Source: an uncultured Latescibacterota bacterium
Lineage (GTDB): Bacteria > Latescibacterota > UBA2968
Assembly: GCA_951812755.1 (NCBI GenBank)
Contig: OX638329.1
Span: 3,356,522 to 3,420,521 of the forward strand
DNA: 64,000 bases
Reading direction: 5' to 3'
Part shown: piece after piece, positions 8,945 through 28,563 of the stretch
Layout: every line of letters starts with the position of its first letter
Numbering within the stretch: position 1 is the stretch's first letter
Notes under the pieces: generated by a model
Databases searched by the model: none
Seen by the model: only the letters and a program-made list of their open reading frames with translations
What the model was told of the DNA's origin: nothing
Made by a program: the position numbers and the translations under genes

Positions 8945-9679
8945 TCACAGCAGCTTTTCGCGTTCTATCATTCGCCTCAGAGCCAGAAAAATGAACAATA
9001 TACCCAGAATGGCAATGCCGGCGCGGTTTAAGACCACGCGATTTACCCACAGGCTGGTATCTAAATCTGAAGGCGGGTCAAATGGCTTGAGAAAAAGGTA
9101 ATACGATGTATCCTCAAATGTCTCGGTAGAAAGCAAAATCGCAATCAAAAGCCCAACAGCGAGCATACCAGCCGCATTGCCGCTCCGACACAATACAGAA
9201 AACAAAAATGTAGCTCCCACCATAAAAAAAGCGGGAATCCAGGCATTCAATCCCCCCAGAACATAGGGAAACTCCGCGAAAAAATAGTAGGAAATCGTAC
9301 TCATTGCCATCAGCGTGGCAAATAGCGCAGCACAGATCGACACAATTCTCACGGCCCACGTTGTGTAGTGGCTGATCGCCGTGCTGAACAGAATCTCAAG
9401 CGTATCCTTATCTCTCTCCCCCGACACCAGGTCCATCGTCAGATAAATTGCAAGCACTGTGCCCGGCACTTCAACCAATACATGGAGAGCTTGTTCGACC
9501 GAAAATCCTTCGCCCGGACGCCAGATTGCAATCGCATACAAAATTGCGTAATACGCCACAATTCCACCGAACATAAAAATCATTTTGCGGTGAAACACGA
9601 TTCTCATGCTCAGGCTGTGCATTTTCCCGACAAAGAAAAGCAACTCACGCCATGTTAGGCTGTTTGTATTCATCGCCAT
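8945..9679 (-). CDS. ABC-2-type transporter permease
   Basis: Membrane subunit of an ABC exporter, about 244 residues. Seen: six likely transmembrane segments (for example IVAYYAILYAIAIW, ILGILFIFLALR) and, between them, the LTMDLVSGERDKDTLEILFS stretch typical of ABC-2 permeases that pair with CcmA-like ATPases. The ATG at 9679 (MAMNTNSLTW) is preferred; the frame is open further upstream but that part overlaps the previous gene heavily. Even so it overlaps the end of the RND-ABC fusion gene by 35 bases, so translation is probably coupled. It is the last gene of the operon and the natural membrane partner of the ATPase domain carried by that fusion. Confidence 0.85.
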   Translation of the reverse strand: MAMNTNSLTWRELLFFVGKMHSLSMRIVFHRKMIFMFGGIVAYYAILYAIAIWRPGEGFSVEQALHVLVEVPGTVLAIYLTMDLVSGERDKDTLEILFSTAISHYTTWAVRIVSICAALFATLMAMSTISYYFFAEFPYVLGGLNAWIPAFFMVGATFLFSVLCRSGNAAGMLAVGLLIAILLSTETFEDTSYYLFLKPFDPPSDLDTSLWVNRVVLNRAGIAILGILFIFLALRRMIEREKLL

Positions 9680-12600
9680 GTCGCAAAAGATAGAGGTATG
9701 CATCTTCGAGAGTGGGCGTAACTGGATGTGCTTCTGGGATGGGATCAGTGGCGAGAAACCGCACCCGAATCCCATCGGGCACGCGCACATGTGTAATCAT
9801 ATCCAGATCGCGTTCCAGCGCATCAAAGCGTTGATCTGGTAGCAGGGCCTCCCAGACCTTATCGCGCGCTAAATCGCGCATTTCAATCGGGGTTCCCGTA
9901 TAAAGCAACTTACCGTGATTCAGCACGGCCAATTGGTTACAACTACCCGAAATATCTTCGACAATATGCGTGGAAAAAATAATGATTTTTTCCTGACTAA
10001 ATCGCGCCAGCAAATTTCTGAAACGGATCCGCTCGAGCGGATCCAATCCCGCTGTTGGCTCATCCACCACAATAATCTGTGGCAAGTGCAACAGGGTTTG
10101 TGCAATGCCCACGCGCTGTTTCATACCGCCGGAGAACGACCCAATTAGATCGTCGCGCCTATCCCACAAATTGACCTGCTCCAGACATTCTTGAACGCGC
10201 TTGCGTCGCGCTACCCCATCCTTAAATCCCTCTAAAAGCGCGCGGTATTCCAGATAATTATACGCAGACATGTGCAGATACAGGCCAAAGTGCTGCGGCA
10301 AATATCCAATCACCCCCTGCATATTCCGATGTGTAAGCGGTATTTTACCATTGGCGAGTACCGACCCGTAATTTGACGACAAAACTCGACATACAATCCG
10401 CATCAGCGTGGTCTTGCCCGCGCCATTGGGCCCCAAAAGCCCAAACATGCCGCGTGGTATATCGAGACTCACGCCGCCGAGAGCCTGGAATTGCGGGCGC
10501 GGAACGCCAATCAGGGGAACTGCGGCAGCGCCGCGGTACACAATACCTTTCACAGGGCCTAACCGCCCCGGTATATGCTCGGGATCAACGCGACCTCGTG
10601 AGACGCGGTTTGCCAAAAATCCGATGATGCGATAGAGCAAGTAGATCGCAGAAGTGGCTATGGTCAAAGATATAAGTTCCAGACGCCAGTGGATAAAGGC
10701 GACAAAGGCCAGCGGCAAAATCAATTGGGCGATTTGCGATATCCACCTGTTCTCAATCTGAAAATCGCGCAAAGCAGCCGCGCATAGCACGAGATGATGT
10801 ACGAGGCTCCATATAGCAAGCGCGGTCAAAAATATCCAGGATCCCTGTTCAAAATAGGTTTCCAAATAGATCAAAAGTGCCAGAAGTGGTAATTTCCACC
10901 ACAAACTGTCCTTAATCGCCTTTTTATCTGTCAATACCTGCCCGCGCTCTAAAAGGCGCTGATTGCGCCGCTTGAAGCGATCCCATTCTCGCTTAAACTG
11001 CCCCGGCGCACCGTAAATTTTTGTCAGGTTGCGAATTTCGAGATATTCAATATTGCCGATCTCTGCGAGAGAAGCCATACGCGCGCGATAAATGCGTTGC
11101 ACTATCCAGACTGCGCCCATACACAACATCCACGCCGGCAATGCCAAAAGACAAGTCCAGAACAAACTCTGGTAATAATCGTCAACCCAATACGTCACTC
11201 CCGCAGCGGCTGCCGTCCCCAATACAATCCCGAACCAGCCAATATCCGCCAGCCAGGCCTTGATCTGGTCAATCCCCATGTACATCACGGGAATAAATAC
11301 GAGGGTGGAAACCGTTGAAACCGCCAGCCCTCCGATTACCACAATCGCAAAGGGCGGCCAAATTTCGTAATCGCCGCCAAACGTGAGTGCCAGGGGCAAC
11401 ATGCCCAAAATGGTGGTTGCCGAAGTCATTAAAACAGGGCGAACGCGCGACCGACTCGCCGCGAGCACCGCGCGTTCTCGCCTGAACCTGCGGCGGCGAA
11501 GAGTTTCGATCGCGTCAATCAGCACGATCCCGTTGTTGACGGCAATACCGCTCAAAACAATAAGCCCCAACAGTGCCATTGGTGCTTCGCTCGAAGTCAA
11601 TCCCGTACCCGATAAGACCAGTGCCCAGCACGATCCAATAATTGCCGCGGGCCACGTACACAGAATAATCAAAGGTGCAGAAAGCGATTCAAACAAAGAG
11701 GCCAAAATCATAAAAATGAGCAGTGCAGCAATGCCCATCATCCAGTAATAAATCGTCTCTTCCTCTGCCTCGATCATTTCGATACTATACCCTTCGGGCA
11801 GCACCATTTCAGATACCACAGCTTGCACATAAGCGCGGGAGGCTTCCAGCAGTGGTTGAGACTGCAAAATTTCGTCGGCGTAGCGATAGGACACAATTAC
11901 GCGCCGCGATTGATTGGTGCGCAAAATCATGCTCCTGCCCTGATCCCGGCGCACATGCGAGACTTCCACAAGAGGGATGTACGTCCCCCCCGCACCCAGA
12001 ATCGGCGTCTGTCTCAAACCCGCAATCCCCTCCCCCTCTTCTTCGGGGTCTTCAACATTGCGAATATCAATCGGGATTTCAGTGCCTTCGGGTGTGAGAA
12101 ATGAAATATTGGACCGCGCACCGCGCGGATTGGCGTCGGATACGGCATTGAGCACCTGGCGCACCTGCAATCGCCGGTCAAACATCACTTCTTCATTGGG
12201 CAAAACATGTACTTCAGATGCGCCGCGTTCTGCATCGGCCTGCACGCTATTGGGATCGAGTTCCTCCAGTTCCTCGAGGCGATAGACCAGATCGTCGGCA
12301 AGCATTTGAAGCACTGTAAAATCATAGCCGCGAATTACAGCCATTTCCGAAGGCGCGCCACCTTCCAGGTTGAATCCACCAGAGGCCTGGCGGGTGCCCC
12401 GAATACCTCCGCCTCCCCCGCCTCCCCCGCGGCCACCACCACCTCCCCTGCCCGTGCGTGCGATGGCCTCATAACTCACAATCGCATTTTGGACATCACC
12501 GAATGACTCTTCGAGATTTTCCTTGATGAGATCGATAGAAATCTGGTCGGGGCGTTCGGATAAGGGCAAAAGTTCCACATTGATACTCGCCTGGGTTTCG

Positions 12601-14372
12601 CTAATACTGGTCGTAAAGCGATCTATACCTTTGAGATCTCGCACAGCACTTTCAATTTCGCCAACAACAGCATCGAGAGCTTCAATAGTCGTGCCTTCGG
12701 GCATGCTGATATAGACGGTAAAACGGCTTTCTTCCTGGCGAATATCCTGTTGTAGCATAAAGAAAAAAGAAATGATCAGCGTGATGACAAGCGCGCCGGC
12801 AATACCCAGTGACACTCTGATTCTGTGGCGCAAGCCCGCTTTGAGACACACAGTGTACATCTCGATCAATACGCCTGTTCCCGTTGGTGGCCGAGATGTG
12901 AGAGAAAGGGTTTTCGACGCGAGGGCAGGCACGAGTGTGAGGGCTACGAGAAGAGAGGCAAGCAGCGGAAATACCATGGACAGCGCGAGTTCCCGCAGGA
13001 TATCCTGAAAGTCACTTTGAATAAAAACTACGGGGACAAAAATCGTAATCGTAGTCGCGGTTGCCGCAACAACGGCGCGTGCGACCTCATCGGTTCCGGC
13101 TTTTGCGGCTTCTTTGGGAGATTTGCCCTGTTCAAAATGCTTGAAGATATTTTCCATGACCACGATGCCATTGTCCATCAACATGCCAACTGCAAGCGCG
13201 AGGCCACACAGCGAGAGCACATTCAAACTGAGATCCCACATATACATCAGATTAAATGTGAGCAGCAAAGAACACGGAATGGCGAGGAGCAAAACAGCGA
13301 CAAAGCGCAAATTTCTCAAAAATAAGAACAAAACAAAAAGCCCGAGCAATCCCCCGACAACAGCGGCCCGTTTGAGGAAATTGAGAGCTTCGTTCATAAT
13401 CTCTGCCTGATTTTGGCTGATCACGAGCTGGATATTTTCATAGGCGAGATCGCCGTTGACGCGTTCGATGGCACCTTCGAGTTCTTCTGCAAGTTCGATG
13501 AGATTGGCTTCATCGTCTTTTTGAATGCGAATGCCAACGGCGGCTTTGCCATTGATGCGCTGCAGGTCTGTGCGTTCCTGCAGGCCATATCGGATTTGGG
13601 CAATGTCGCCCAGGTGCAGGGGCAATTCGGGTTTGATAACTACTCTGCGGATTTGCACGAGGTCTGTAAATTGGCCCTTAATGCTAACCGCATAAGCCTG
13701 GTCGCCATCGTACACCCGCCCGAGATATTGCCGCCGCGTATTAAAAGCATTGATGCGATTGCGAACATCAGACATCGAAAGCTGGTGCGCTTGCAACATC
13801 AATGGATCGACAATAATTTCAATAGCCGTTCTTTGTCCGCCCAGAACCTGCGCGTTGACAACACCATCAACCGCTTCCAATTCCGGCCTGATTTTCTCCT
13901 CGGCAAATTCCCGCAACCAGTTTATATCGCCCTCGCCCAATACGTGAATTTGCATCACCGTGGCACTCAGATCAGAGGAATCAAAGCGCTGTATGTTGAC
14001 CCGCGTTCTTTCGGGCAAAAGCGGTTGCAGGCGCGTGATGCGGCTTTCGAGCTGCAACAGGGCGAATTTCATATCCGTATTGGGCGCGTAGGAAATGCGT
14101 ACCCCGCCATTGTTCTGGCGCGAAAAGGACTCATACGCTTCAATACCTTCGAGCTTGCCCACCTCTCTCTCGACGGGCATCACCAATTCCCGCTCGACCT
14201 GTTCGGGCGAATAGCCCTGCTGAGTGACTGCGACAAAGACCTCCGGGCGGACGAGTTCGGGAAATATCTGAACGGGCAATCGGTCCAGTGAAATCGCGCC
14301 TAAAATAGCCAGACCAAGAAAAAACATGGCTGTGGTCACGGGCCGCCGAACGGCAATACCAGCAAGTGTCAC
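9645..14372 (-). CDS. RND efflux pump fused to a membrane-interrupted ABC ATPase
   Basis: 1575 residues; a normal RND pump has about 1030. Seen: residues 1 to about 1030 are a complete HAE/AcrB-like RND subunit (IAVRRPVTTAMFFLGLAILG at the first helix; helix-4 motif VGMLMDNGIVVMEN; late motif SGIAVNNGIVLIDAI), with a polyglycine loop at about 639-660 in the second periplasmic region. Two further hydrophobic helices follow, then YLEIRNLTKIYG near residue 1108, the usual first strand of an ABC ATPase. About 165 extra residues with four likely membrane helices come next, and only then FQALGGVSLDI, Walker A GPNGAGKTT (about 1314), signature SFSGGMKQR (about 1411), Walker B IIVVDEPTAGLD (about 1432) and H-loop STHIVED. 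Normally strand and Walker A are some 30 residues apart. The start is GTG, overlapping the preceding stop by four bases, with GGAGG upstream. Known: RND pumps are driven by protons. Inference: this subunit may couple ATP use to an RND assembly. Confidence 0.88.
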   Translation of the reverse strand: MTLAGIAVRRPVTTAMFFLGLAILGAISLDRLPVQIFPELVRPEVFVAVTQQGYSPEQVERELVMPVEREVGKLEGIEAYESFSRQNNGGVRISYAPNTDMKFALLQLESRITRLQPLLPERTRVNIQRFDSSDLSATVMQIHVLGEGDINWLREFAEEKIRPELEAVDGVVNAQVLGGQRTAIEIIVDPLMLQAHQLSMSDVRNRINAFNTRRQYLGRVYDGDQAYAVSIKGQFTDLVQIRRVVIKPELPLHLGDIAQIRYGLQERTDLQRINGKAAVGIRIQKDDEANLIELAEELEGAIERVNGDLAYENIQLVISQNQAEIMNEALNFLKRAAVVGGLLGLFVLFLFLRNLRFVAVLLLAIPCSLLLTFNLMYMWDLSLNVLSLCGLALAVGMLMDNGIVVMENIFKHFEQGKSPKEAAKAGTDEVARAVVAATATTITIFVPVVFIQSDFQDILRELALSMVFPLLASLLVALTLVPALASKTLSLTSRPPTGTGVLIEMYTVCLKAGLRHRIRVSLGIAGALVITLIISFFFMLQQDIRQEESRFTVYISMPEGTTIEALDAVVGEIESAVRDLKGIDRFTTSISETQASINVELLPLSERPDQISIDLIKENLEESFGDVQNAIVSYEAIARTGRGGGGGRGGGGGGGGIRGTRQASGGFNLEGGAPSEMAVIRGYDFTVLQMLADDLVYRLEELEELDPNSVQADAERGASEVHVLPNEEVMFDRRLQVRQVLNAVSDANPRGARSNISFLTPEGTEIPIDIRNVEDPEEEGEGIAGLRQTPILGAGGTYIPLVEVSHVRRDQGRSMILRTNQSRRVIVSYRYADEILQSQPLLEASRAYVQAVVSEMVLPEGYSIEMIEAEEETIYYWMMGIAALLIFMILASLFESLSAPLIILCTWPAAIIGSCWALVLSGTGLTSSEAPMALLGLIVLSGIAVNNGIVLIDAIETLRRRRFRRERAVLAASRSRVRPVLMTSATTILGMLPLALTFGGDYEIWPPFAIVVIGGLAVSTVSTLVFIPVMYMGIDQIKAWLADIGWFGIVLGTAAAAGVTYWVDDYYQSLFWTCLLALPAWMLCMGAVWIVQRIYRARMASLAEIGNIEYLEIRNLTKIYGAPGQFKREWDRFKRRNQRLLERGQVLTDKKAIKDSLWWKLPLLALLIYLETYFEQGSWIFLTALAIWSLVHHLVLCAAALRDFQIENRWISQIAQLILPLAFVAFIHWRLELISLTIATSAIYLLYRIIGFLANRVSRGRVDPEHIPGRLGPVKGIVYRGAAAVPLIGVPRPQFQALGGVSLDIPRGMFGLLGPNGAGKTTLMRIVCRVLSSNYGSVLANGKIPLTHRNMQGVIGYLPQHFGLYLHMSAYNYLEYRALLEGFKDGVARRKRVQECLEQVNLWDRRDDLIGSFSGGMKQRVGIAQTLLHLPQIIVVDEPTAGLDPLERIRFRNLLARFSQEKIIIFSTHIVEDISGSCNQLAVLNHGKLLYTGTPIEMRDLARDKVWEALLPDQRFDALERDLDMITHVRVPDGIRVRFLATDPIPEAHPVTPTLEDAYLYLLRHGDEYKQPNMA

Positions 14373-17300
14373 GCGGATTTCCTCCGGAGTCGATCAATCA
14401 GTTCATACATGGTGGGTATCACGAGTAAGGTCATCAATGTCGATGTCACCAATCCGGCAATGACGGCAATAGCCATAGGTGCGCGCAATTTTGCCCCCTC
14501 GCCAAAGCCGATTGCCATGGGCAGCAGAGCGAGAATGGTCGTCGCACTCGTCATCATAATGGGACGCAAGCGGTCCTGCCCGCCCTGGAGGACCGCATCT
14601 CGCAATGTCATGCCAGCTTGTCTGAGCTGGTTGATGCGATCCACGAGAATGATCGCATCGTTGACCGCAATACCGCCCAGCATAATGATGCCGATATAGG
14701 CCATCACACTGAGGGGTTCGCCCAAAATATAGAATCCAAATATCACGCCGACGCCGGCTAATGGAACGGAAAACATTACAGTGAACGGATGGAGCGTGGA
14801 TTCAAATAGCGATGCCATAACCATATAGACCAGCACAATTGAAAGCAGGAGTGCGAATTTGAGACTTTCAAATGACGCTGCGCGTTCGCGCTCTTCTCCG
14901 CCAATTTCAACGCGATACCCCGACGGCACAACCATTTCCTGCATGGTAGCGCGCACGTCGGCAATAGATTCACTTAAAATGCGCCCTTCTGTGAGATACC
15001 CTGTAATGCGCCCCACGCGACGCTGATCTTCTCTCAAAATTTCGCGGGGACCTTCAATAATATTGAGCTCGGCGATATCTCCCAATGTCAGGATCGCGCC
15101 GTCTGATCCCTCGATTTGTATGGTGTGGAGTTCGCGCAGATCGACATCTCGATATTTTACCCGGATATCCCTTGTACGCTGGTCCTTAGACAGTTCGCCG
15201 GCAACTTCACCCGACAGTTGTCTTTCCAATGTGCGGCTGATGGTCTGCGTGGTCAGTCCGAATGCCGCCGCCACCTCATCGCGAATTGCCAGATCGACTT
15301 CTGGCTGCCCGCCCTGAAAACTCGTGCGCACATTGTACACCGAAGGCAGGTCCTCAATCCTCACTTGAAGCTCTTTGGTGATACGCGCCAAAATATCGAG
15401 ATTTTCCCCGGACACTTCGACCTGAATGGGCGCTTCTTGCCCCCCCATCACGCCTTCAAGCGCGGTTTCGTGTAGCTTGTATTTCACCTCGATATCGGGC
15501 ATGGCACTCAAAATGGGATCCAGATCGCGCACCAATTCGCTGACGCTGCGCGACCGCTGTGTCTCTAAAGCCACCGATAGGGTCGCGCGATTGGGACCCG
15601 TCGGTTCGCCTCCGCTCGATACCAGAGCGGGATTGAGGCCGGTCAGCGCGTACACATGAGCCACATCGCTTCCGCCAACGCTTTCGACAATCTCTTTGGC
15701 GTGCAGGGCAACCTGATCGCTCAGTTCCACACGCGAGCCTTCGGGCAATGTGAGGTCAATTTGGAATAGCCCCTGATCTTCGCGCGGGATAAATTCAGTC
15801 TGCAACTCGCGGGCAATATATCCAGTTCCACCCAGAATGAGCAGCACGACGACGAGCAGGATGGGTTTGCGGTTCAAAATACCATTGAGAAAACGATAGT
15901 ATTTATCTGACCGAACAGTCGTTTTGTGCGTGGTATTCATCCGCCTAAAAATGCGCGATGTCAGCATCGGAATCGTCGTCATTGCCACAACCAGAGATGA
16001 CAGCAGCGAAAATGCAACAGTCCACGCCTGATCCACAAAGAGTTTGCCTGCCAGCCCCTGCAAATAGACAATGGGCAAAAAAACAGCCACTGTCGTCAGC
16101 GTTGAGGCAAGAATTGCCACGCCGACTTCAGAGGCTCCTCGGCTCGATGCTGTGCGTGCATCCTCGCCGCTTTCCATATGCCGGTAAATATTCTCTATGA
16201 CCACAATAGCATTGTCAACGAGCATGCCCGCGCCCAGAGCTAATCCGCCCAGCGTCATAATATTTAGGGACAGTCCTTCAAAGTACATAAGTGTGAATGT
16301 CGCCAATACGGAAATGGGAATCGCCAACCCTATCACCAGCGTTACTGTCCAACTCCGCAACGCGATCAAAAGCACGAGAATGGCCAAAAACGCCCCGTGG
16401 ATGGCAGATGTTTCGACTTCTCCTATGGCGTCTTCGACAAATCGCGCCTGGTTTTCGACGGTTGTGAAGTGCATGCCGCTCAGGTCCGCTTCGATATCGT
16501 CTATCGCATCCAATACCGTATTGACCACGGCGACTGTGTTGCTACCGGCTTCTTTGTAAATGGCGAGGCCAACGCATTCTCGTCCATCGAGGCGCACGAT
16601 GGTTTCTCGCTCTTGATATTCCAGATCAACCGTGCCCACATCGCGCACGCGCACCGGAACCCGGTCTCCAGAAACCACACCCCCTGCCCCGCGCTTTTCT
16701 CCCACAATGACTTCCCGCACATCGTTGATATCATTTAAGCGACCGAGGGCTTTGACCGTATATGACTGCTGGTTTTCTCTGAGCGTGCCTCCGGATACAT
16801 CGGCATTGGCCTGTGCGATGCGATTGATGACCGCATCGGGTGAAAGCCCAAACGCTTCGAGCAAATAGGGATCGAGCGAAACGCGCACTTCCTTTTCTGC
16901 CCCCCCTTCCACTTCGGCAGACGCCACGCCATCGAGGGCTTCCAATTTCGGTTTGATCAGCAATTCTACCGTGCCTACCAGTGCATCGAGTTCAGTGTTT
17001 TCGTCGGCTGTAATCGCTATTCGCATCACCGCAAGTGCGAGCGGGTCTTCTCGCGTCACATCCAACTGCGACACATCTTCATTTGCCGCATAGCGCCCCA
17101 CTCTTTTTTGCACGTCGAGCAACCCGTAATCCATGTCCGCATCCCAGGCAAATTCCGCAATGACTACGGCTTGTCCAGAGCGGGTAATAGAATAGACGCG
17201 CTTGACGCCGTTAATCGTGCTCACATCGCGTTCGAGGCGGCGCGTATAGCTTTCTTCAATCTCGACAGGCGATTTGCCCGGTGCAGTTAAGTCGATGGTG

Positions 17301-17434
17301 ACGACAGGTGTTTGCAAATCGGGTAGGAGATCTGTACCCAAACCATCCAGTGATATCCAGCCGAGCAAAACCACCGCGAGGGTTGCCATAGCAATTGTCA
17401 CGGGATATCGCGTTGAAAATTCCGGCAAATTCAT
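14369..17434 (-). CDS. RND efflux transporter permease
   Basis: Inner-membrane proton-driven exporter subunit, 1021 residues, normal for the HAE/AcrB group. Seen: first helix region STRYPVTIAMATLAVVLLGW, large periplasmic porter domains, helix-4 motif LVDNAIVVIENIYRHME in which the first of the two usual Asp residues is kept and the second is Asn, and the second half repeat LGGIAVNDAIILVDRINQLR followed by the MTSATTILALLPMAIG helix. The start ATG overlaps the adaptor stop by four bases (ATGA), and its own stop overlaps the next RND gene. Two different RND subunits encoded in tandem suggest a heteromeric trimer, as known for MdtBC; that is inference here. Confidence 0.95.
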   Translation of the reverse strand: MNLPEFSTRYPVTIAMATLAVVLLGWISLDGLGTDLLPDLQTPVVTIDLTAPGKSPVEIEESYTRRLERDVSTINGVKRVYSITRSGQAVVIAEFAWDADMDYGLLDVQKRVGRYAANEDVSQLDVTREDPLALAVMRIAITADENTELDALVGTVELLIKPKLEALDGVASAEVEGGAEKEVRVSLDPYLLEAFGLSPDAVINRIAQANADVSGGTLRENQQSYTVKALGRLNDINDVREVIVGEKRGAGGVVSGDRVPVRVRDVGTVDLEYQERETIVRLDGRECVGLAIYKEAGSNTVAVVNTVLDAIDDIEADLSGMHFTTVENQARFVEDAIGEVETSAIHGAFLAILVLLIALRSWTVTLVIGLAIPISVLATFTLMYFEGLSLNIMTLGGLALGAGMLVDNAIVVIENIYRHMESGEDARTASSRGASEVGVAILASTLTTVAVFLPIVYLQGLAGKLFVDQAWTVAFSLLSSLVVAMTTIPMLTSRIFRRMNTTHKTTVRSDKYYRFLNGILNRKPILLVVVLLILGGTGYIARELQTEFIPREDQGLFQIDLTLPEGSRVELSDQVALHAKEIVESVGGSDVAHVYALTGLNPALVSSGGEPTGPNRATLSVALETQRSRSVSELVRDLDPILSAMPDIEVKYKLHETALEGVMGGQEAPIQVEVSGENLDILARITKELQVRIEDLPSVYNVRTSFQGGQPEVDLAIRDEVAAAFGLTTQTISRTLERQLSGEVAGELSKDQRTRDIRVKYRDVDLRELHTIQIEGSDGAILTLGDIAELNIIEGPREILREDQRRVGRITGYLTEGRILSESIADVRATMQEMVVPSGYRVEIGGEERERAASFESLKFALLLSIVLVYMVMASLFESTLHPFTVMFSVPLAGVGVIFGFYILGEPLSVMAYIGIIMLGGIAVNDAIILVDRINQLRQAGMTLRDAVLQGGQDRLRPIMMTSATTILALLPMAIGFGEGAKLRAPMAIAVIAGLVTSTLMTLLVIPTMYELIDRLRRKSA

Positions 17435-18498
17435 CGTCCGTCTCCCGTGACCCGCACCCGGGTGCGCGGCCTCAGTGTTTCGTAATTGCTCGTGATCAAC
17501 TGGTCTCCCGGTTCAAGTCCAATTACAATTTCCACGCGATCTCGGTCTTCCAGGCCGGTTTCTACTTCGCGTTGTTGTGCACGGCCTTCTTCTTCGACAA
17601 AAACAACCTTCTGATTCCGCCGCCGCAAAACGAGATTGCGCGCAATAAGTACGACATTTTGTCGCGATTCCGTGACTATTTCTGTTTTGACAAACATACC
17701 CGCTCGCAAAAGCAAGTCGGGATTATCGACCATCCCGACGACCTGAACTGTGCGCGTGACGGGATCGATAGCCGGATCCATCTCGACAATTTCACCTTCA
17801 AAAACTTCTTCGGGCAAAGCGTAATTGCTCACGCGGATGCCCTGGCCCAATTTCACATTGATAATCTGGGCATTGGGAATTTTCAAATCGACAAATAACT
17901 GTGAATAATCCATAATTTTTGCGATTGTGGTATTCGGAGTCACCAGCGTTCCCTGCGTAATATCCGCGAGTTCCGACAGCACGCCCTGAATAGGTGTCAA
18001 GAGCTTAGTTTTATCGATCTTGATGAGGGCATCCTGATAATTGGCTTCTGCATCGGCCCATGCTCTACGCGCACTTTCAACGGCCATTTCCGTTGCCAGT
18101 TGTCGGCTAAACAGAGTTTCCTGCTCCTTTAGCGTTCGCTTGGCTGTTTCAACCGCGAGTTTGCGCGCTTCCACTCGTGCGCCAACAACCCATTCATCGC
18201 TGTCGAGCCTGGCTATAGTCTGCCCCCTTCTAACCTCCGACCCCTTGGCGAGCAAGCGGTTATTACTCCCCTTGCTCCAGTACAGACTCCCCCGAATCTC
18301 AGTCGTGATCTGGGCTTCGCGCACTGGTCTGAGAGTTCCGGTAGCTGTCACAATAGATTCAATTGTTCCCGTCTCTACGGATTGAACAGTAACGGGAACT
18401 GTCAGATCAACGGTGCGCTGTTCTGCCTGTTGATCACAGGCGACTATCCCACAAAGGATAATTACCAACAGAAATTTTGAGCAAAAATCAAACTTCAC
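17431..18498 (-). CDS. RND periplasmic adaptor (membrane fusion) lipoprotein
   Basis: Links RND pumps in the inner membrane to an outer-membrane channel. Seen: lipoprotein signal peptide with lipobox region ILCGIVAC, then the beta-barrel/lipoyl half (TGTLRPVREAQITTEIRG), a helical hairpin around the middle (AVETAKRTLKEQETLFSRQL), the second lipoyl half and the membrane-proximal domain ending LRPRTRVRVTGDGR. The GTG at 18498 is chosen as the start: GGAGG lies seven bases upstream of it, while the ATG two codons earlier abuts the ribosome site. Protein about 355 residues. It precedes the two RND genes with 4-base overlap. No TolC-like gene is present in the window. Confidence 0.93.
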   Translation of the reverse strand: MKFDFCSKFLLVIILCGIVACDQQAEQRTVDLTVPVTVQSVETGTIESIVTATGTLRPVREAQITTEIRGSLYWSKGSNNRLLAKGSEVRRGQTIARLDSDEWVVGARVEARKLAVETAKRTLKEQETLFSRQLATEMAVESARRAWADAEANYQDALIKIDKTKLLTPIQGVLSELADITQGTLVTPNTTIAKIMDYSQLFVDLKIPNAQIINVKLGQGIRVSNYALPEEVFEGEIVEMDPAIDPVTRTVQVVGMVDNPDLLLRAGMFVKTEIVTESRQNVVLIARNLVLRRRNQKVVFVEEEGRAQQREVETGLEDRDRVEIVIGLEPGDQLITSNYETLRPRTRVRVTGDGR

Positions 18499-18516
18499 AT
18501 CCATACCTCCGTTAAA

Positions 18517-21500
18517 TTAAAATCCCAACAACCCGCCGCCACCTCTGTTACCACCGGGACCTCGCCTACCATCTCCGCCGCCGCGATCCCCGCCGCCGCG
18601 CCCGCCACCAGGTCCACCTCTGCCGCGCCCAGTAAAGGTGGGCATTTCATCTTCGTAGGCATCGGGGTTTTGCGGATCAAAAAAGCGCCATCGTACAGCA
18701 TCGGCATAGAGACGCCCACGTCCATCTGCACGGTCGGACAATTCGACTACGGCTTCTTCTCCTTCGGCAAATTTGTATCGCCCCAGATAATTCCATCCCG
18801 CTTTCATCTGGTCGCGTTCCATTTCGAGTGTATCTGCTTTGCCGCTGTGAAAAATAGTCAGTGTAAAGCTCGATCCGACGCGCATGCGCCTGGCCATTGA
18901 GGGATCGGGGAAAAAGAAGCCCACATCATACTCTCCGTCTTTGGGGATTTGCGCTGTCCACACGGCTGGCTGTGCGCCATCTCCCGGACGCTTCATTCGG
19001 AAATTTGTCTCAAATCGCCCAAAGGCCATTGGCGAGCCCTGCTCGCTCCAGTTGCCGCCTTTGAGTCCCGGACGGAAGTAGCGCGTTGCGCGCCGCACGG
19101 GCATTGAAAATCCGTCGTCGTCATTATCTACGATAATTTCAACAGGACCAGAATCTTCGCCCGTCACGTCTTTTACATAAGCAACCGGAAAGCCCTCTGT
19201 GACATCTTCGGGAACGCGCACGGGGGACATAAGAGGTCGCCGATTCCGTGCAAAAAAAGGTTCGACCATCACCCTGAAGGGCTGTTCCCAAAGAACCATC
19301 GAAACTTCAATTTCCTGTCCACCTTCAATCTCGACGCCTTTTAGGGCTTCATCGCCCCGTCCAGTAGCCGTAATTTGCACATATCCCCTGCCCGGTTCGC
19401 TATTCTTAATTCTCAGAATCAATTGATAGACCACCATCCCAAAGCCATCGTCCATCTTCAGAGCTTTTACCCTTGTAAGGGTATAGCCGGGGATCTCTGT
19501 ACTAAAAATCCAGTCGTTGACGAGACGCTGTAATTTTTGACTCTCTTCACTTTCTGTGGTATCGCCCACTGCAGCGCGTTCAAAGGTCGAAAAATCAATG
19601 TCCTCGTATTTGTGATTGTGGTCTATGTCGTCTAAGACCGTGCGAAATGTTTCCTCACCCAAAAAAGATTCCATCATTTGAAAAAGTGCGGGTCCTTTGG
19701 CGTCGAGAACCTGACGGTAGAGACCGGCTTGCGTTTCGGGATTTAAATCGGCAAATGACTTGCGTTGCATTTTTGCAACCAACGTATCCCAGGCAGCCCC
19801 ACCACCAGTTGTCCTGCTGCGCCCACCTGGTCCACCACGTCCGCCTGGTCCATCGCGCCCGCCACGCCCCCTGTCGCCACCACCACCGCGTCGTTGGCTC
19901 GAATAAAAAGCGGAGGTCATATCGGTGCTTAAATCATTCTGAAGATACATGGGCATGCCCTTTTTGAGCAAGGCGTGATGATCGCCCACAAACTGCTTGT
20001 CATAAGCCCAGAGTTGAACAACAGGGCTGCGAAACAATCCGCCAGGCTGTCCCTGTCTGCCCGAATTTCCTTCCCGGGAAAAAAAGGTCGAAAAAACTGC
20101 GCGGACCAAAAGATCCTTTTTAATGTCTTTGGGTTCACGGTTGCCGCGCGAACGCTCCTGATAGCGCTTGAAATCGCGGGTAAATTGCTGCCGCATGAAC
20201 ACATCTTCTTCTATCATTAACACACCGGGCAGTGTCAACCCGCCCTTTTCTTCCCAGCCTTCGTAATACCATTGAACATGAAAGGAAATTTCCACCAAAG
20301 AAAGACTGGAATAGGGGTATTTCATGCCCGATTCTTGTTCCATTGCGTCCATTATTTGCTCAAGCGCACTTAAAATCTCTTCTTCGGCACCTTCAAAAAA
20401 TCGGACTGGACGCAGATGCGATGGGTGGGCGTAAAGGGCGCATTCGACATCGTGAATGGTCGCGCGATAAACGCGGTATTCACCCGCATTGAGCGATAGG
20501 ACAGGTACGGGATTTTCGACGATCCACTGACGCGTTATCTGTGTGCCGAGCGTATCGGTCTTGCCGACCCGTCCCTGGGTAATGACTTCTAAGCCCTGAG
20601 GATATGTTATTTTCAGATTTGCCGTTGAAAAGGAGACCGCACGCGCATCCTCATAGCCATAATCAACGCCCGTTACTGGATACCATCGGCTGCGCGGAGG
20701 CAAAAAGATGGAATTGTCGCGAATCCACGCCGTTAAAGATCCTTTATTAAATATGCCTAATGGTCCTTCGCGTTTGCGCAGCTTCGGTCTGGCTTTTTCC
20801 CGTTGGAGATCAAAACCATCTGTGTTAATATCACCCGCGTATGCCAGTGTCAGGTCGAGTTCTCGCTCTGATTGCAGGGGATTAGCGGGCATGACGCGGA
20901 TCACGCTTCCCTTCCGCTCCCACGCTATTGCGCCGCCGTCAGCATGCGTCAGACTCTGGATTTCAAATCCGGGATTGAGTGAAAGAATCAGCGTATCGAG
21001 CGGCACTTCGTAGGAGTTTTTCAATGTAATCGTGCCAGAGGCGGCAAGCGGCTCCTCCCCCAAAAGTGTCAGTGCCAGATCGTAATGGGTTATTTCCGCG
21101 ACGGAAATATTCGCAACCGCTTCCTGTTGCGCTATCAACGAACTGCGATATGCTTTCCCATCTTGCGCGCCTGCATCCATATAAAAGTAAAGCCCTACAG
21201 CCAGACCAAAACCGGTCAGTGCGCATCCGCGACCAAACCAGCGCGCGACTAAGGAATGTGCAAGACGGGGATACCAATCAATTGAAAAGCCAAAAAATCC
21301 AATGCCGAGCAAGATGTAAAACAGGCGTTGTAGTCCTACTTGCGTAATATCTGCCAGACCAATCAGATCGGAATAATACAGAGGCGTAAAAAAAGCACCA
21401 AAGTCGTAGATGCCGTCATATCGCCTGCCCAGGAATAACAGGACAGCCAACAAATACCCGATCACAATCAGGGCAACTGCGGCTTGCCGCCGCAACACTG

Positions 21501-22011
21501 CCCCCAGAAAAAATGTCACAGAAGACATAAAAATCAGGGCGGGCAGGTTCATGAGCACGAGGTAGCTGATATAGGGTTTTATTGTAAACGGATTGCCCGT
21601 CATGCTGATTTTTGCAGCCTGGATACTCAAGGTTAAAAGCAGAACCCCCAGGCTCAAAAAAATAAGCGCACTAACAATGCCCAGATACTTACCTGCGACC
21701 AGTTCCGCAGTGGAAATGGGTCGCCCGGCCACAACTTCGTAAATATGCGCCTGTTCATCCGCTGCTCTAAAATCCCCCACAATAAATGCAATGACAATGG
21801 TCTGTAAGAAACTATACACTAAAAACGGGACATAAGAATCAATGCCCACGGGTAGTTCAGCACCATTGGCTTCTGCTATAGCAAAGCCGATGCCGAGTAA
21901 AATGGGAACGCTCATGCCCAGACCGCCCAAAATGCGGAATTTTATAGTTCGAAAGAGCATTTTGCGCTCATAACGCGCAACGCCCCATACATTGTTAAAG
22001 ATAGATAGCAT
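18517..22011 (-). CDS. ABC-2 permease fused to M1-peptidase-like and golvesin-like domains
   Basis: 1164 residues. Seen: residues 1 to about 270 form an ABC-2 permease with six or so helices (VPFLVYSFLQTIVIAFIVGD, IPTLADI-type ends); after a further helix the rest is extracytoplasmic and follows the M1 aminopeptidase plan (beta domain, then helical domain). The stretch GGLTLPGVLMIEED stands where the GAMEN exopeptidase motif is expected, and LVRAVFSTFFSRE where HExxH should be, so the zinc ligands are missing. A Gly/Arg-rich insert of about 35 residues lies near 703-738, a golvesin/xanthan-lyase-like beta domain near 1030-1120 (MKAGWNYLGRYKFAEGEE), and a Gly/Arg-rich tail from about 1125. Permease/M1 fusions are known in Bacteroidota; loss of the catalytic residues and the two RGG-like tracts are the odd parts. 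Probably partner of the ATPase encoded just upstream. Confidence 0.82.
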   Translation of the reverse strand: MLSIFNNVWGVARYERKMLFRTIKFRILGGLGMSVPILLGIGFAIAEANGAELPVGIDSYVPFLVYSFLQTIVIAFIVGDFRAADEQAHIYEVVAGRPISTAELVAGKYLGIVSALIFLSLGVLLLTLSIQAAKISMTGNPFTIKPYISYLVLMNLPALIFMSSVTFFLGAVLRRQAAVALIVIGYLLAVLLFLGRRYDGIYDFGAFFTPLYYSDLIGLADITQVGLQRLFYILLGIGFFGFSIDWYPRLAHSLVARWFGRGCALTGFGLAVGLYFYMDAGAQDGKAYRSSLIAQQEAVANISVAEITHYDLALTLLGEEPLAASGTITLKNSYEVPLDTLILSLNPGFEIQSLTHADGGAIAWERKGSVIRVMPANPLQSERELDLTLAYAGDINTDGFDLQREKARPKLRKREGPLGIFNKGSLTAWIRDNSIFLPPRSRWYPVTGVDYGYEDARAVSFSTANLKITYPQGLEVITQGRVGKTDTLGTQITRQWIVENPVPVLSLNAGEYRVYRATIHDVECALYAHPSHLRPVRFFEGAEEEILSALEQIMDAMEQESGMKYPYSSLSLVEISFHVQWYYEGWEEKGGLTLPGVLMIEEDVFMRQQFTRDFKRYQERSRGNREPKDIKKDLLVRAVFSTFFSREGNSGRQGQPGGLFRSPVVQLWAYDKQFVGDHHALLKKGMPMYLQNDLSTDMTSAFYSSQRRGGGGDRGRGGRDGPGGRGGPGGRSRTTGGGAAWDTLVAKMQRKSFADLNPETQAGLYRQVLDAKGPALFQMMESFLGEETFRTVLDDIDHNHKYEDIDFSTFERAAVGDTTESEESQKLQRLVNDWIFSTEIPGYTLTRVKALKMDDGFGMVVYQLILRIKNSEPGRGYVQITATGRGDEALKGVEIEGGQEIEVSMVLWEQPFRVMVEPFFARNRRPLMSPVRVPEDVTEGFPVAYVKDVTGEDSGPVEIIVDNDDDGFSMPVRRATRYFRPGLKGGNWSEQGSPMAFGRFETNFRMKRPGDGAQPAVWTAQIPKDGEYDVGFFFPDPSMARRMRVGSSFTLTIFHSGKADTLEMERDQMKAGWNYLGRYKFAEGEEAVVELSDRADGRGRLYADAVRWRFFDPQNPDAYEDEMPTFTGRGRGGPGGGRGGGDRGGGDGRRGPGGNRGGGGLLGF

Positions 22012-22023
22012 GGTATTGGTCCT

Positions 22024-22917
22024 TTACGCGGCAATTTCGCCTGTGGTATCGCCTCCGACAAAATAGACATAGGCATCTTCGAGATTGGGCGCGACTGCTT
22101 CGGCATCAGCGGGAGGCTCGCCATCGCCCACCATACGCAAACGCATCTGGTCGCCCTCAACATTTACTGTGACTACGCGAAACACCCGCGACAGCATTTC
22201 AAAGCCAGCGTCATCGACCTGCACTTCCCACGTTTTGCCATCGGCTTTTGAAATGAGTTCTCCGGGAGAACCGCGAAATATCATTTGACCGGTATCCAAA
22301 ACCGCGAGATCTTCGCAGGTACTCGAAATATCGCCCACTATATGCGTGGAAATCAAAATTGCGCGATCGCTACTCAAGCGTCCCAAAATACTCCGAAATC
22401 GGATGCGTTCTTCCGGGTCAAGTCCAACGGTGGGTTCATCGACAATGAGAAACTCTGGATTGGCCAAAATGGCCTGTGCAATGCCAAGGCGGCGCATCAT
22501 GCCACCGGAAAACGTGCCCGAGCGTCGATTGCGCGCTTCGTACAAGCCGACTTCGTTTAGAGCTTGCTCTACGCGATTTAGACGCGCGCTTCTATTGTGC
22601 ATGCCGCCCAAAACAGCCATATAATCGAGAAATTCCCAGGCAGTCAGTTGTGGATAGGTCCCAAAATGCTGGGGCAAATATCCCAGACGTCGGCGAATTT
22701 CTGTGCGGTCTTTTACGAGGTCGAACTCATCCATGGTCACGTTGCCGCTCGATGCGTCCATCTGAGTTGATAAAATTTTAATCAGTGTTGTTTTTCCTGC
22801 ACCATTGGGTCCCAACAGACCAAATGTTCCGTGTGGGATCCTCAAGGTGACATCGTCTAAGGCGGGAACTGCGCCACGGCGATATACTTTTGTCAGGTTT
22901 GAAATGCGAATGACCAT
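22024..22917 (-). CDS. ABC transporter ATP-binding protein (ABC-2 exporter type)
   Basis: 297-residue CcmA-like ATPase. Seen: RISNLTKVYRRG first strand, Walker A GPNGAGKTT, Q-loop region LGYLPQHFG, signature FSGGMMRRLG, Walker B FLIVDEPTVGLD, H-loop STHIVGD, and a C-terminal extension of about 80 residues ending in LEDAYVYFVGGD. The C-terminal extension is strongly similar in layout to that of the ATPase domain in the RND-ABC fusion (which ends LEDAYLYLL), so the two ATPases look like paralogues. The ATG has GAGGAG eight bases upstream. Twelve bases separate it from the permease/M1 gene. Confidence 0.95.
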   Translation of the reverse strand: MVIRISNLTKVYRRGAVPALDDVTLRIPHGTFGLLGPNGAGKTTLIKILSTQMDASSGNVTMDEFDLVKDRTEIRRRLGYLPQHFGTYPQLTAWEFLDYMAVLGGMHNRSARLNRVEQALNEVGLYEARNRRSGTFSGGMMRRLGIAQAILANPEFLIVDEPTVGLDPEERIRFRSILGRLSSDRAILISTHIVGDISSTCEDLAVLDTGQMIFRGSPGELISKADGKTWEVQVDDAGFEMLSRVFRVVTVNVEGDQMRLRMVGDGEPPADAEAVAPNLEDAYVYFVGGDTTGEIAA

Positions 22918-24973: not shown

Positions 24974-27900
24974 TCACTTTAAGAGCGCAACGCGATTTGT
25001 AAATATCGCTTCCTTGTCTTTTAGAAGGACTATATAGATTCCAGACCCCACAGATGCTCCCGAGTCATTTTTACCATCCCATATACGCCGATAATATCCT
25101 GCCGGCAAATGTTGTTGAACCAACCGTCGGATGGGTTGTCCCAGGATATTATATATAGTTACATAAACAGGACCTCCTGTAGTGTAAAAACCTAACACAG
25201 TTGCAGTATTGAAAGGATTAGGTGACGGGTAAATGCCCCAATCTGTTTCCAGACCACGGGGTTTTGAATCGCCAGATATAGGACTATTAACCATCTGGCC
25301 TTCACTATCAAAAACAATGGGTTTTCCCGATACGACATTTTCATCGTTCACACCATTCAGGGTATCTGGTTCCACTTCCGAAACAGGTGGTGTACCGGGT
25401 GACATCGCGTGCTGGCCAGGGATTCGGGGGTGTAACTCTGGAGGAGCATCCGGCGACAACAGCCATGAAACATCTGGTGTAGCTTTTGGTACGCGCACAG
25501 ACCGCGCTACAGTCTTACCATCGGGCAGGATCAGATGAACAACATCTCCACCGCTACTGAGTCCATTTCCTATCTGACCTCCAGCAGACAAGACAGTACC
25601 GGGGATACTCACAGGCGTCCCTCCACCAAAGATGGTGACATAACCACCGGGTACGAGCATGACATCATCGGGAAAAGGAAAGAATTGAGAGACAACGATA
25701 TCGTCATCGCCGAGCATCCATCCGCTCAGGTCGAGCGTATCTGCACCGGTATTAGCCAATTCGACAAAAGCATCTGTATGTCGATCCACAACCCCATCGT
25801 TATTGGCATCCACCTGTTTGGGTAACATCAGGATTTCGGAGAATACCAGACCGTTAGGGATAGTCAATTCTTCGGGGTCAATTGCATCATCGCCATGCCC
25901 TAAGCGTCCGACTGAGATAGATTTCCCTTCGTATATCTCATTGTGTAATAGATAATTGCCATTATCATCTCTGGCAAAGGATATGCCCTGACGCGCGTTC
26001 TCATACGTCATTTTAGATACCACCGTACTTCCATCGGGTGCCAATAACTGCACGGTATCGCCTCCATTGGACAGGCCATCGCCAATGCGACCGTCATCGG
26101 CAAAAATCCGCTCGCTAACGGGCATATCCCCCCCACCAAAGAGCACTGCGACAGCTTGAGGTTTGAGCATTGTATTGTCGGGAAATCGAAAAAGCTTTTT
26201 TAGAGGCACATCGTCATCACCGAGGTAATAGCCGCCAATATCGATGGGATGCTCGCCCAAATTCGCTATTTCGACAAACTCATCCTGATAGGTGTGCCGC
26301 CCCCCATCACCGTTGGTATCACCTGCGTCGCCTGTGGCCGGATTGGGATATACTTCAGAGATCACCAGGTCTTTGGGTGGTTGAAAAATGTCAAGTGTAT
26401 CTCTACCCGCTGTATTTATGGAATCTGCTCTCGTCGCCTCTTGTCCATCCGGTGATGTACCGGGCGACATCGCGTGCCAGTCGGGGATTTGGGGGTGTAA
26501 CTGTGGTGGGGCATCAGGCGACAATAGCCATGAAACATCTGGCGTGGCTTTTGGTACGCGCACAGACCGCGCTACAGTCTTACCATCGGACATGATCAGA
26601 TGGACGACATCACCGCCACTAGCAAGACCATTGCCGATTCGATCGCCTACAGACAAAACGTGACCGGGAATCCCTAAAGGCGTTCCCCCACCAAAAATGG
26701 TGACATAACCTCCGGGCACGAGCACGACACTATCGGGAAAAGGAAAAAACTTAGAGACAACGATATCGTCATCGCCGAGCATCCATCCGCTCAGGTCGAG
26801 GGTATCTGCGCCGATGTTAGTCAGTTCTACAAAAGCATCTGCATGTCGATCCACAACCCCATCGTTATTGGCATCCACCTGTTCGGGCAGCATCAGGATT
26901 TCGGAAAATACGATACCATCCGGGACAGCCAATGTGTCGGTCAATCCTTCAGGCTCAATCGGGTCATCTCCAGGTTTTAAGCGTCCGACAGAAGTTGAAT
27001 CCTCTTTGTATATCTCATTGTGCAAGACATAATTGCCGTCTTCATCTCTGGCATAAGAGACGCCTCTGGTCGAGCGTTCATATACCATTGAAGCGACTAC
27101 TGTACTGCTATCGGGTGCCAATAACTGCACGGTATCGCTCCAATTGGACAGGCCATCGCCAATGCGACCGTCATCGACAAAAATCCGATCTTTAACTGGC
27201 ATATTTCCTCCACCAAAGAGTACTACGACCGCTTGCGTATCGAGCACTGTGTTATCGGGAAATCGAAATAGGCGATCTGCTGAAACATCGTCATCGCCGA
27301 GGAAATAGCCACCAATATCGATGGGATTTTCGCTCTGATTCGCCACTTCGATAAACTCATCCTGATAAGTGTGCCGCACCCCATCGCCATTGGCATCGCC
27401 CGCTTCACCCCAGGCGGGATTGGGATACACCTCCGAGATCACCAATGCTGGTTTTTCCTTTTCTAACACCCGGATATATGTGTGAAGACTCTCCCGACCT
27501 CTCCAGAAAAATCCGACCTCCGTTTCACCAGGATGCACAGCAACCACCTTGTTGTTATGTTCGATTCGCGCGATAGTGGTATCCCACGATACCCATAAAA
27601 CCTCATCATCGAGCTGCGTTGGTACTCCATCTTTATAAATCGCGGGTATCAGTGAAACGGATTCTCCTTCTATCATGTCCAGATATTCGGGAAAAGATTG
27701 GAGTATATCGAAAAGCGACCGTGGTTTGCCGGGTGAAAATAGCCCTTTGCCCGGGTCAGCACTGTGCAATACCCACCCGCCAGTCCCTTCCGGATACCGC
27801 ACCAGAGATTGGTCCTTACCCCCTTCTTTACCCCATTCTGCTCTGGCAATTGTATCGCCTGCAGTTTTTATGAGAAATACCTCGTCGCTTGTATTGTTTA

Positions 27901-28285
27901 AACCTCTACTACCTATTTTGCCATCATCGACAAAAACTTTGCCTTCAAATTCAGATTTAATTTTCGTTATATCTCCGCCGCCAAAAAGGACGATGTATTC
28001 GCCAGGGCCAATCACTGTGTCTGATGGGAAAGAAAATGGTTTGCTCGTCTTAGAGTTGTCTGTCAATTGCCACCCACCGATCACAATAGTATCTGATCCG
28101 GTATTCAGTATTTCCACAAATTCGTCCTCACTGGTGTGCCGGACACCATCTCTATTGGCATCACCCCGATCCCCCGATGGCGGGCCTGCAAGGACCTCAT
28201 TGATCACGACATCCTTTTCAGCACCGAAAACTTGTATCTTCCAAAGCATTCCCAATATCACAACAATAATCCCGTATCTCATCAT
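24974..28285 (-). CDS. secreted multi-LTD protein with FlgD-like C-terminal tail
   Basis: Large surface or secreted protein, 1103 residues. The frame is open 26 codons further up, but ATG 28285 has a perfect AGGAGGT ribosome site and begins a signal peptide (MMRYGIIVVILGMLWKIQVFGA). Seen: five lamin-tail-domain-like units, the first at about 25-150, then about 277, 457, 637 and 814 onwards; a BIG2-like bacterial immunoglobulin domain at about 200-275 between the first and second; and a FlgD-Ig-like tail from about residue 1019 (PSPNPFNTATVLGFY to the end), the kind of C-terminus found on secreted FCB-group proteins. Units two and four share the signature GDANGDG/GDTNGDG, and three and five share VDANNDGVVDRH, both DxNxDG-type calcium-loop sequences. 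Units alternate in two types, with DNA-level duplication. Confidence 0.82.
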   Translation of the reverse strand: MMRYGIIVVILGMLWKIQVFGAEKDVVINEVLAGPPSGDRGDANRDGVRHTSEDEFVEILNTGSDTIVIGGWQLTDNSKTSKPFSFPSDTVIGPGEYIVLFGGGDITKIKSEFEGKVFVDDGKIGSRGLNNTSDEVFLIKTAGDTIARAEWGKEGGKDQSLVRYPEGTGGWVLHSADPGKGLFSPGKPRSLFDILQSFPEYLDMIEGESVSLIPAIYKDGVPTQLDDEVLWVSWDTTIARIEHNNKVVAVHPGETEVGFFWRGRESLHTYIRVLEKEKPALVISEVYPNPAWGEAGDANGDGVRHTYQDEFIEVANQSENPIDIGGYFLGDDDVSADRLFRFPDNTVLDTQAVVVLFGGGNMPVKDRIFVDDGRIGDGLSNWSDTVQLLAPDSSTVVASMVYERSTRGVSYARDEDGNYVLHNEIYKEDSTSVGRLKPGDDPIEPEGLTDTLAVPDGIVFSEILMLPEQVDANNDGVVDRHADAFVELTNIGADTLDLSGWMLGDDDIVVSKFFPFPDSVVLVPGGYVTIFGGGTPLGIPGHVLSVGDRIGNGLASGGDVVHLIMSDGKTVARSVRVPKATPDVSWLLSPDAPPQLHPQIPDWHAMSPGTSPDGQEATRADSINTAGRDTLDIFQPPKDLVISEVYPNPATGDAGDTNGDGGRHTYQDEFVEIANLGEHPIDIGGYYLGDDDVPLKKLFRFPDNTMLKPQAVAVLFGGGDMPVSERIFADDGRIGDGLSNGGDTVQLLAPDGSTVVSKMTYENARQGISFARDDNGNYLLHNEIYEGKSISVGRLGHGDDAIDPEELTIPNGLVFSEILMLPKQVDANNDGVVDRHTDAFVELANTGADTLDLSGWMLGDDDIVVSQFFPFPDDVMLVPGGYVTIFGGGTPVSIPGTVLSAGGQIGNGLSSGGDVVHLILPDGKTVARSVRVPKATPDVSWLLSPDAPPELHPRIPGQHAMSPGTPPVSEVEPDTLNGVNDENVVSGKPIVFDSEGQMVNSPISGDSKPRGLETDWGIYPSPNPFNTATVLGFYTTGGPVYVTIYNILGQPIRRLVQQHLPAGYYRRIWDGKNDSGASVGSGIYIVLLKDKEAIFTNRVALLK
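25394..27450 (-). repeat. internal tandem duplication of about 1.07 kb in LTD gene
   Basis: Two adjacent copies, roughly 25394-26458 and 26459-27450, each encoding one type-A and one type-B LTD unit. Anchors such as ACCGGGTGACATCGCGTG (25394) and ACCGGGCGACATCGCGTG (26459), and the AAAATCCG segments near 26103 and 27181, are offset by 1065-1078 bases. Long stretches are nearly identical, so the duplication is recent or kept alike by conversion. Confidence 0.85.
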
Positions 28286-28563
28286 ATTGACCTCCTGCGA
28301 TAATTTTTCTTTATGACATCTGCAAATCGCGTGCCAAAAGCTAAAAAATATCATAAGAGACATTAAATCAGTGAGTTACGCTCATGGAGGTCTGTATAAC
28401 CAAATAGCATTGGAGAACGAATCGTTCAATTTTTGGCGATGAATGAATCAAATTTTTCAAAAAAAATCCCGGCCATTATAGTGACCGGGGTTCATTTATG
28501 CTTGACGTATATCGAAAAAACGTGTTATTGATTGCGTCGTCTAACCAACAGGAGGATAAGACT

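Follow-up and report, generated by a model that had tools for sequence, protein, structure and literature searches.

ATP-binding cassette (ABC) and resistance-nodulation-division (RND) exporters are treated as separate machines with different energy sources. The nearest kin of the gene considered here are fusions to which public annotation gives the name 'ABC transporter permease/M1 aminopeptidase'. Four of these, from Marinifilum genomes (L220-L223), hold two permease halves and an M1 ectodomain in one chain and carry an intact HExxH-x18-E site, with HEMAHQWW and the third-ligand Glu. In NosDFY, NosD sits on the permease NosY, and tripartite RND efflux pumps of the AcrAB-TolC type are built around RND permeases and an adaptor. 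Here we describe a gene at positions 18517-22011 (minus strand) of a 64,000-nucleotide stretch, hereafter the window, from an uncultured Latescibacterota bacterium (lineage UBA2968; assembly GCA_951812755.1, contig OX638329.1, positions 3,356,522 to 3,420,521). The gene joins an ABC-2 permease to an M1-like pseudo-peptidase, a Golvesin_C domain and a Gly/Arg tail, and it lies in an operon with RND genes. We propose that it provides a non-catalytic receptor or coupling ectodomain in a hybrid RND-ABC trans-envelope exporter conserved in the Fibrobacteres-Chlorobi-Bacteroidetes (FCB) group, and we put the probability of this explanation as a whole at roughly 0.6.

Like the active fusions, the window protein has an M1 ectodomain behind an ABC-2 permease half, and it is homologous to them along the chain. 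Unlike them, it has a single permease half, no zinc ligands, a Golvesin domain and RND genes next to it; its second permease is a separate downstream gene. With peptidase family M1 (aminopeptidase N, ERAP1, LTA4H, the Deinococcus two-domain M1) it shares the N-terminal beta, helical and Ig-like domains, whereas HExxH and the third-ligand Glu are missing and the Pfam score falls under the cut-off. The NosY-like permease fold is common to the window protein and NosDFY, but here the periplasmic part is covalently joined and M1-like, and RND pumps are among the partners. Finally, the adaptor and the RND permeases recall AcrAB-TolC-type pumps, with a TolC-type gene adjacent in one locus (L083), yet here an ABC ATPase forms one chain with the second RND subunit, and the operon includes every component of an ABC transporter.

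The permease and its M1-like ectodomain

The open reading frame (ORF) starts with ATG at 22011, ends with a stop codon at 18519-18517 and encodes 1164 amino acids. A permease and an M1-plan domain do occupy one frame, as a sequence-only reading of this DNA had claimed. The AlphaFold2 model of the protein, built on an alignment of 25 sequences (A1) from a first set of 36 family ORFs, has a mean predicted local distance difference test (pLDDT) score of 78.7 and a predicted template modelling (pTM) score of 0.72. The permease part (residues 1-300; 21112-22011, minus strand) matches NosY: residues 6-251 superpose on NosY of NosDFY with Z 20.9 and a root mean square deviation (rmsd) of 3.0 over 228 residues (VIA-align), and an extra helix follows at about residues 254-299. 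By sequence, the ABC-2 permease model match stays below the Pfam cut-off and NCBIfam gives only a weak match to the GldF permease.

The M1-like ectodomain spans residues 296-925 (19237-21126, minus strand). M1 enzymes top the Foldseek list for the model (best E 1.4e-19), and residues 298-879 superpose on the Deinococcus two-domain M1 structure 6koy with Z 19.5 and rmsd 3.5 over 392 residues, at 14% identity (VIA-align). The profile of the family matches 14 M1 proteins (probability 99.8, E 2e-30), and the C-terminal part of Pfam Peptidase_M1 (PF01433) aligns to residues 763-834, although below the cut-off (16.6 versus 27.7 bits). The M1 fold anticipated from the letters alone is thus borne out by the model and its alignment to M1 enzymes.

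Neither HExxH nor GxMEN was found in the protein by motif search. To see how far this extends (31 of the 60 relatives' genomes matched in a first search; a scan of species genomes then gave 272 relatives, the best 80 of which were taken), we turned to members from Latescibacterota, Acidobacteriota, Bacteroidota, KSB1, Krumholzibacteriota and other taxa. Among 89 distinct family ORFs, fragments included, HExxH and G[AG]MEN are each found in none. For the column survey, 81 ORFs of 1050-1260 residues were aligned with the query (82 rows; the other 8 were left out for length). In residues 560-840 there is no conserved His, the highest column share being 33% of the 82 rows with query-gap columns counted, and no alternative conserved set of zinc ligands was seen in this alignment. 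Judged by sequence, the loss of the zinc site is old and family-wide and the 1164-residue protein is not a peptidase, in agreement with the 'catalytically dead M1' of the sequence-only reading. It can fairly be inferred that the ectodomain binds rather than cleaves.

The relationship to the active fusions is direct. The family aligns with the four of them over 805 columns (hhalign; probability 99.6, E 3.3e-24), and this alignment begins at their column 317, that is, it covers the second permease half and M1. When the profiles are split, the permease part matches half 2 (E 5e-12) better than half 1 (E 1e-6) and the ectodomain matches their M1 part (E 1e-16); the Golvesin part finds no match in the active fusions. 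The family can therefore be regarded as a pseudo-peptidase branch related to the active fusions. The absence of GAMEN, put forward in the sequence-only reading as a further mark of a dead enzyme, holds as an observation but is not diagnostic, because the HExxH-bearing active fusions lack GAMEN as well. By these profile comparisons the window protein is an ABC-permease/M1 fusion of a pseudo-peptidase type, to which a Golvesin domain has been added. It would descend from active fusions, or share a common ancestor with them, the zinc site having been lost and the Golvesin domain gained.

This added domain is a CBM6/CBM35-like beta-sandwich at about residues 957-1110 (18682-19143, minus strand; CBM, carbohydrate-binding module). 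Its presence, too, had been noticed from the letters, and Pfam places Golvesin_C (PF25275) well above the cut-off at residues 985-1107 (E 2.2e-17, 63.8 versus 31.6 bits). It is found in all 25 members of alignment A1 and contains strongly conserved residues. Modelled alone on 37 of the 80 available sequences (pLDDT 82.1), it superposes on the C-terminal module of the Paenibacillus xanthan lyase 6f2p with Z 18.4 and rmsd 1.9 over 135 residues. This match is far ahead of the next ones, among which CBM35- and CBM4-type modules are frequent, and the Golvesin-part profile also retrieves 6f2p by sequence (E 7.1e-13). Fold and Pfam/profile match are thus common to the Golvesin domain and the 6f2p module of the CBM6-CBM35 group, but the former is carried by a transporter and the latter by a lyase. 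According to PMC9166713, golvesin and a xanthan lyase carry a CBM6-CBM35-CBM36_like_2 domain.

The RND-ABC operon

In the window the operon runs on the minus strand in the order ABC ATPase, permease/M1-like protein, adaptor, RND, RND-ABC fusion and ABC-2 permease. The stand-alone ABC ATPase (22024-22917) is closest to NCBIfam DrrA and GldA, below cut-off. Downstream of the permease/M1-like gene lie an RND periplasmic adaptor, or membrane fusion protein (17431-18504), an unfused AcrB-type RND permease (14369-17434) and an RND permease fused to an ABC ATPase domain (9645-14372). The last gene, for a second ABC-2-type permease (ABC2b; 8945-9790 as listed), shares its first part with the terminal stretch of the fusion gene, and its true start may lie lower.

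We counted the conservation of this arrangement over 80 named loci. Immediately upstream of the permease/M1-like gene there is an ATPase gene in 71 of the 72 loci with room for it, the miss being L058; L045/L058 (genome G008) is the sole close relative in which no recognisable ATPase gene occupies that place. Of 66 loci, 62 have the adaptor downstream in the same orientation; for the RND gene the count is 55 of 59. Three of the four adaptor misses (L065, L069 and L073) are in Acidobacteriota, where adaptor, RND and RND-ABC genes are divergent and upstream; the fourth, L100, has no adaptor, RND and RND-ABC set. In most distant loci about 1.5 kb separates the permease/M1-like gene from the adaptor. 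In the window no TolC-type gene lies between the two.

The RND-ABC fusion was searched for in 30 distant genomes. It gives a single match of at least 1,440 residues in 27 and two pieces within one 1,627-codon frame in another, which makes 28 of 30 with the fusion in one frame; in one genome it is split over two contigs, and in G088 it was not found. Its ATPase domain is split: the first strand (IEYLEIRNLTKIYG) is followed by about 150 residues with hydrophobic segments and only then by the Walker A part. This split is kept in all 11 sequences viewed among the 39 aligned, up to Bacteroidota and KSB1. As for the last gene, 39 loci were examined, 31 of which hold the C-terminus of the fusion; the ORF after it is strongly hydrophobic in 27 of these, and two of the four misses, L046 and L047, have an ABC2b match by BLAST.

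Some loci depart from a single copy of each gene. The permease gene is duplicated, side by side or nearby, in L104, L116 and L077, and genome G052 (Latescibacterota) has at least 5 copies. Accessory genes upstream of the ATPase were considered as a conserved clue to the cargo and discarded, as these neighbours vary between loci. The upstream protein P0003 matches the LolB family below cut-off (E 2e-4, 20.9 versus 50 bits) and has weak partial relatives in 8 of 14 genomes, its self-match included.

Gly/Arg-rich tracts in the operon proteins

Two RGG-like tracts had been pointed out in the M1-like protein, and both are present. The internal one (residues 704-741; 19789-19902, minus strand) forms a disordered loop joining two helices of the M1-like domain and contains 17 Gly, 8 Arg and 3 RGG triplets in 38 residues. 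The C-terminal tail (residues 1124-1164; 18520-18642, minus strand), likewise disordered, contains 22 Gly, 7 Arg and 4 RGG triplets in 41 residues. Both have pLDDT below 50, so clustered RGG triplets fall in low-pLDDT segments, as in the definition of RGG/RG-rich proteins. Synonymous codons are mixed within the tracts, which argues against a very recent simple repeat; Tandem Repeats Finder (TRF) reports weak tandem repeats at 18571-18600 and 19820-19863.

With a fixed threshold of at least 15 Gly plus Arg and at least 7 Gly in 25 residues, none of 316 background ORFs (121,589 residues in 20 stretches of 20 kb, spread evenly over the same genome) carries a tract, compared with 2 of 44 in the window, both in this operon. 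Over the fetched loci, tracts occur in 35 of 89 permease/M1-like proteins (36 when whole frames with upstream extensions are counted, leaving 53 without), in 23 of 74 RND-ABC fusions, many of which end before the site, and in 3 of 75 adaptors, but in none of 80 ATPases and none of 77 first RND proteins. Close relatives of the window protein keep the tail tract in 16 of 19 cases and the internal tract after residue 700 in 8 of 19; the search for such tracts in close homologues thus found them kept. Two more hits in the close tier precede the likely start and probably are not translated. Among the distant relatives, tracts lie at three other places, which makes five in all for this protein: near residue 610 in 1 of 62, at 875-890 in 7 and at 1031-1048 in 7.

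The RND-ABC fusion of the window also carries a Gly/Arg tract, from residue 641 (12353-12452, minus strand); a polyglycine tract had been noted in its periplasmic part. It lies between two ACR_tran stretches and starts just past the first (residues 5-634), which by RND topology assigns it to the second large periplasmic loop. A Gly-rich stretch occupies this one alignable place in nearly all fusion sequences viewed; it is mainly close-tier members that have it in a long form including Arg. Two adaptors (L070:10455-11588 and L047:8387-9511), both beside tract-bearing RND-ABC fusions, have Gly/Arg C-terminal tails of their own. Only 2 of the 269 other ORFs in 57 distant loci carry a tract, and both are directly upstream of the operon ATPase. 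These two (L096:4959-5852 and L121:5066-5947) look exported, one being lipoprotein-like and one weakly LolB-like. They have no BLAST match to each other and no relatives in other loci, and a PDB sequence search with both gave nothing useful.

Nucleic-acid binding or Arg methylation is unlikely at tracts outside the cytoplasm, and composition alone lends it no support. The suggestion that the tracts are a shared interaction feature fares unevenly: their restriction to extracytoplasmic parts and their appearance at independent sites speak for it, but in the distant half of the family a permease tract is not accompanied by a long one in the RND-ABC fusion.

Proposed exporter and alternative explanations

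Based on these comparisons, the permease/M1-like protein would be one transmembrane half of an ABC exporter comprising two ABC permeases, two ABC ATPase domains (one free, one RND-fused), two RND subunits and an adaptor, perhaps with a TolC-type channel, for whose gene most distant operons have room at an adjacent place. The four ABC parts may form one heteromeric transporter, which the RND-ABC fusion would tie to the RND trimer. The ectodomain, presumably on the periplasmic side, would bind cargo (peptide, glycan or glycolipid) and pass it on from the ABC part to a conduit of RND, adaptor and channel, or else couple the two halves. By analogy, the module resembling that of xanthan lyase points to a glycan or glycolipid, the groove of the M1 fold to a peptide; neither is preferred. 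The Gly/Arg tracts would be disordered extracytoplasmic loops and tails, gained repeatedly, whose likeliest role is to serve as tethers or loose contacts to partner subunits or to anionic polymers of the envelope. Of all steps in the scheme this is the weakest.

A number of observations weigh against this explanation. Residues E574 and E602 are invariant in all 82 rows, and the former GAMEN region is consequently still under constraint. In 12 hhalign runs (close, distant or all members against two M1 sets) HExxH is placed anywhere in about residues 627-672; since the runs disagree by tens of residues, an exact mapping of the old zinc ligands was given up and our claim is limited to there being no conserved His in the region. 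Loss of catalysis is deduced from sequence, and a metal-free activity is possible. The Golvesin part appears lectin-like in its modelled fold, with carbohydrate binding putative. A TolC-type gene was identified by Pfam in the gap of a single locus, L083 (OEP, E 1.5e-36). ABC2b matches both halves of the active fusions (E 7.5e-6 for half 1, 3.3e-7 for half 2) and could be equated with neither one, half 1 included. Regarding the tracts, those of the permease protein and the RND-ABC fusion are not paired in the distant tier, so that their co-occurrence as a general rule was dropped (it holds in the close tier only); tract sites also vary by lineage and many members have none, contrary to a shared function.

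How do other explanations account for the same data? That the M1-like domain is still a peptidase, acting through an unrecognised metal site, we consider very improbable. H532 is His in 65 of the 82 rows and could be grouped with the two invariant glutamates. However, the equivalents of H532, E574 and E602 in the four active fusions (H872, E906 and E925, as read off hhalign alignments) are invariant beside HExxH; consequently, these residues do not make a new metal site. The catalytic region contains no further conserved His, and PF01433 has no match at E 0.001 in the whole genome of the window (0 of 1, against 8 of 14 control genomes; as a yardstick, M1 matches over the cut-off occur in 11 of 12 distant genomes searched, the four active fusions being among these matches). 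The two glutamates bear on a further possibility, namely that the ectodomain binds no cargo and is a purely mechanical coupling or scaffold between the ABC part, the adaptor and the RND trimer, much as NosD sits on NosY. The NosY-like permease part and the tight physical coupling suggested by the RND-ATPase fusion are in line with this, and the presence of the ectodomain in every member despite 20-26% identity to distant ones suits a structural role. Nonetheless, binding is the better fit to invariant E574 and E602 in the region of the former substrate groove and to the CBM6/CBM35-like domain, which all 25 members keep and whose residues are in part strongly conserved; a mere scaffold we think unlikely.

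A stronger challenge concerns the tracts alone. They might be neutral low-complexity expansions in length-tolerant loops with no interaction role, and we give this a real chance, if somewhat under even. Gly-rich DNA can grow by slippage, of which the weak tandem repeats may be a trace; the tracts of the window protein are predicted to be disordered, 53 of 89 relatives do without them, and the sites differ between the tiers (the place after residue 700 and the tail in close relatives, the other three places in distant ones). Such neutrality, however, does not sit easily with the empty background of 316 ORFs or with tracts in three different operon proteins and never in the ATPase or the first RND. 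Nor does it predict that the only 2 tract-bearing ORFs among the 269 others should lie directly upstream of the ATPase, or that codons should be mixed and the tail kept in most close relatives.

Returning to the proposed receptor or coupling ectodomain, it is tempting to go further and speculate about an undescribed, FCB-wide class of trans-envelope exporter. A single machine would here unite an RND pump with an ABC heterotransporter, whose second ATPase domain belongs covalently to an RND subunit and is itself interrupted by a membrane insertion; it would be driven by both ATP and the proton motive force, with a dead-peptidase/lectin cargo receptor and repeatedly evolved Gly/Arg periplasmic stickers. 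In this full form we regard the idea as rather doubtful. What the comparisons do point to is an old and widespread hybrid of RND and ABC export proteins, with a pseudo-peptidase as putative receptor, which appears to be undescribed. No description of the operon was found in the open full-text literature searched, including the available portions of PMC9166713, PMC10049358 and PMC8277102; 'RND permease' and 'ABC-RND' occur zero times in the portion of PMC8277102 available. The same full-text literature yielded nothing on fused RND, ABC and M1, on an M1 aminopeptidase with an ABC permease, or on an inactive M1 peptidase. An RND subunit with an ABC ATPase domain, conserved from Latescibacterota to Bacteroidota, opens ABC-RND coupling to direct test, and with the recurrent Gly/Arg tracts RGG-type disorder would be acting outside the cytoplasm, which is unusual. 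Relatives are present in named strains of Marinifilum, Labilibaculum, Carboxylicivirga and Mangrovibacterium, and genetics may therefore be possible.

Near the operon, the window also encodes a large secreted-looking protein (24974-28363) with repeated 'FVEIxNxG'-type segments, which by eye we take to be lamin-tail-like. Elsewhere in the window, TRF reports tandem repeats at 56676-56767 (12-bp unit, 7.7 copies) and 7785-7860 (21-bp unit, 3.6 copies).

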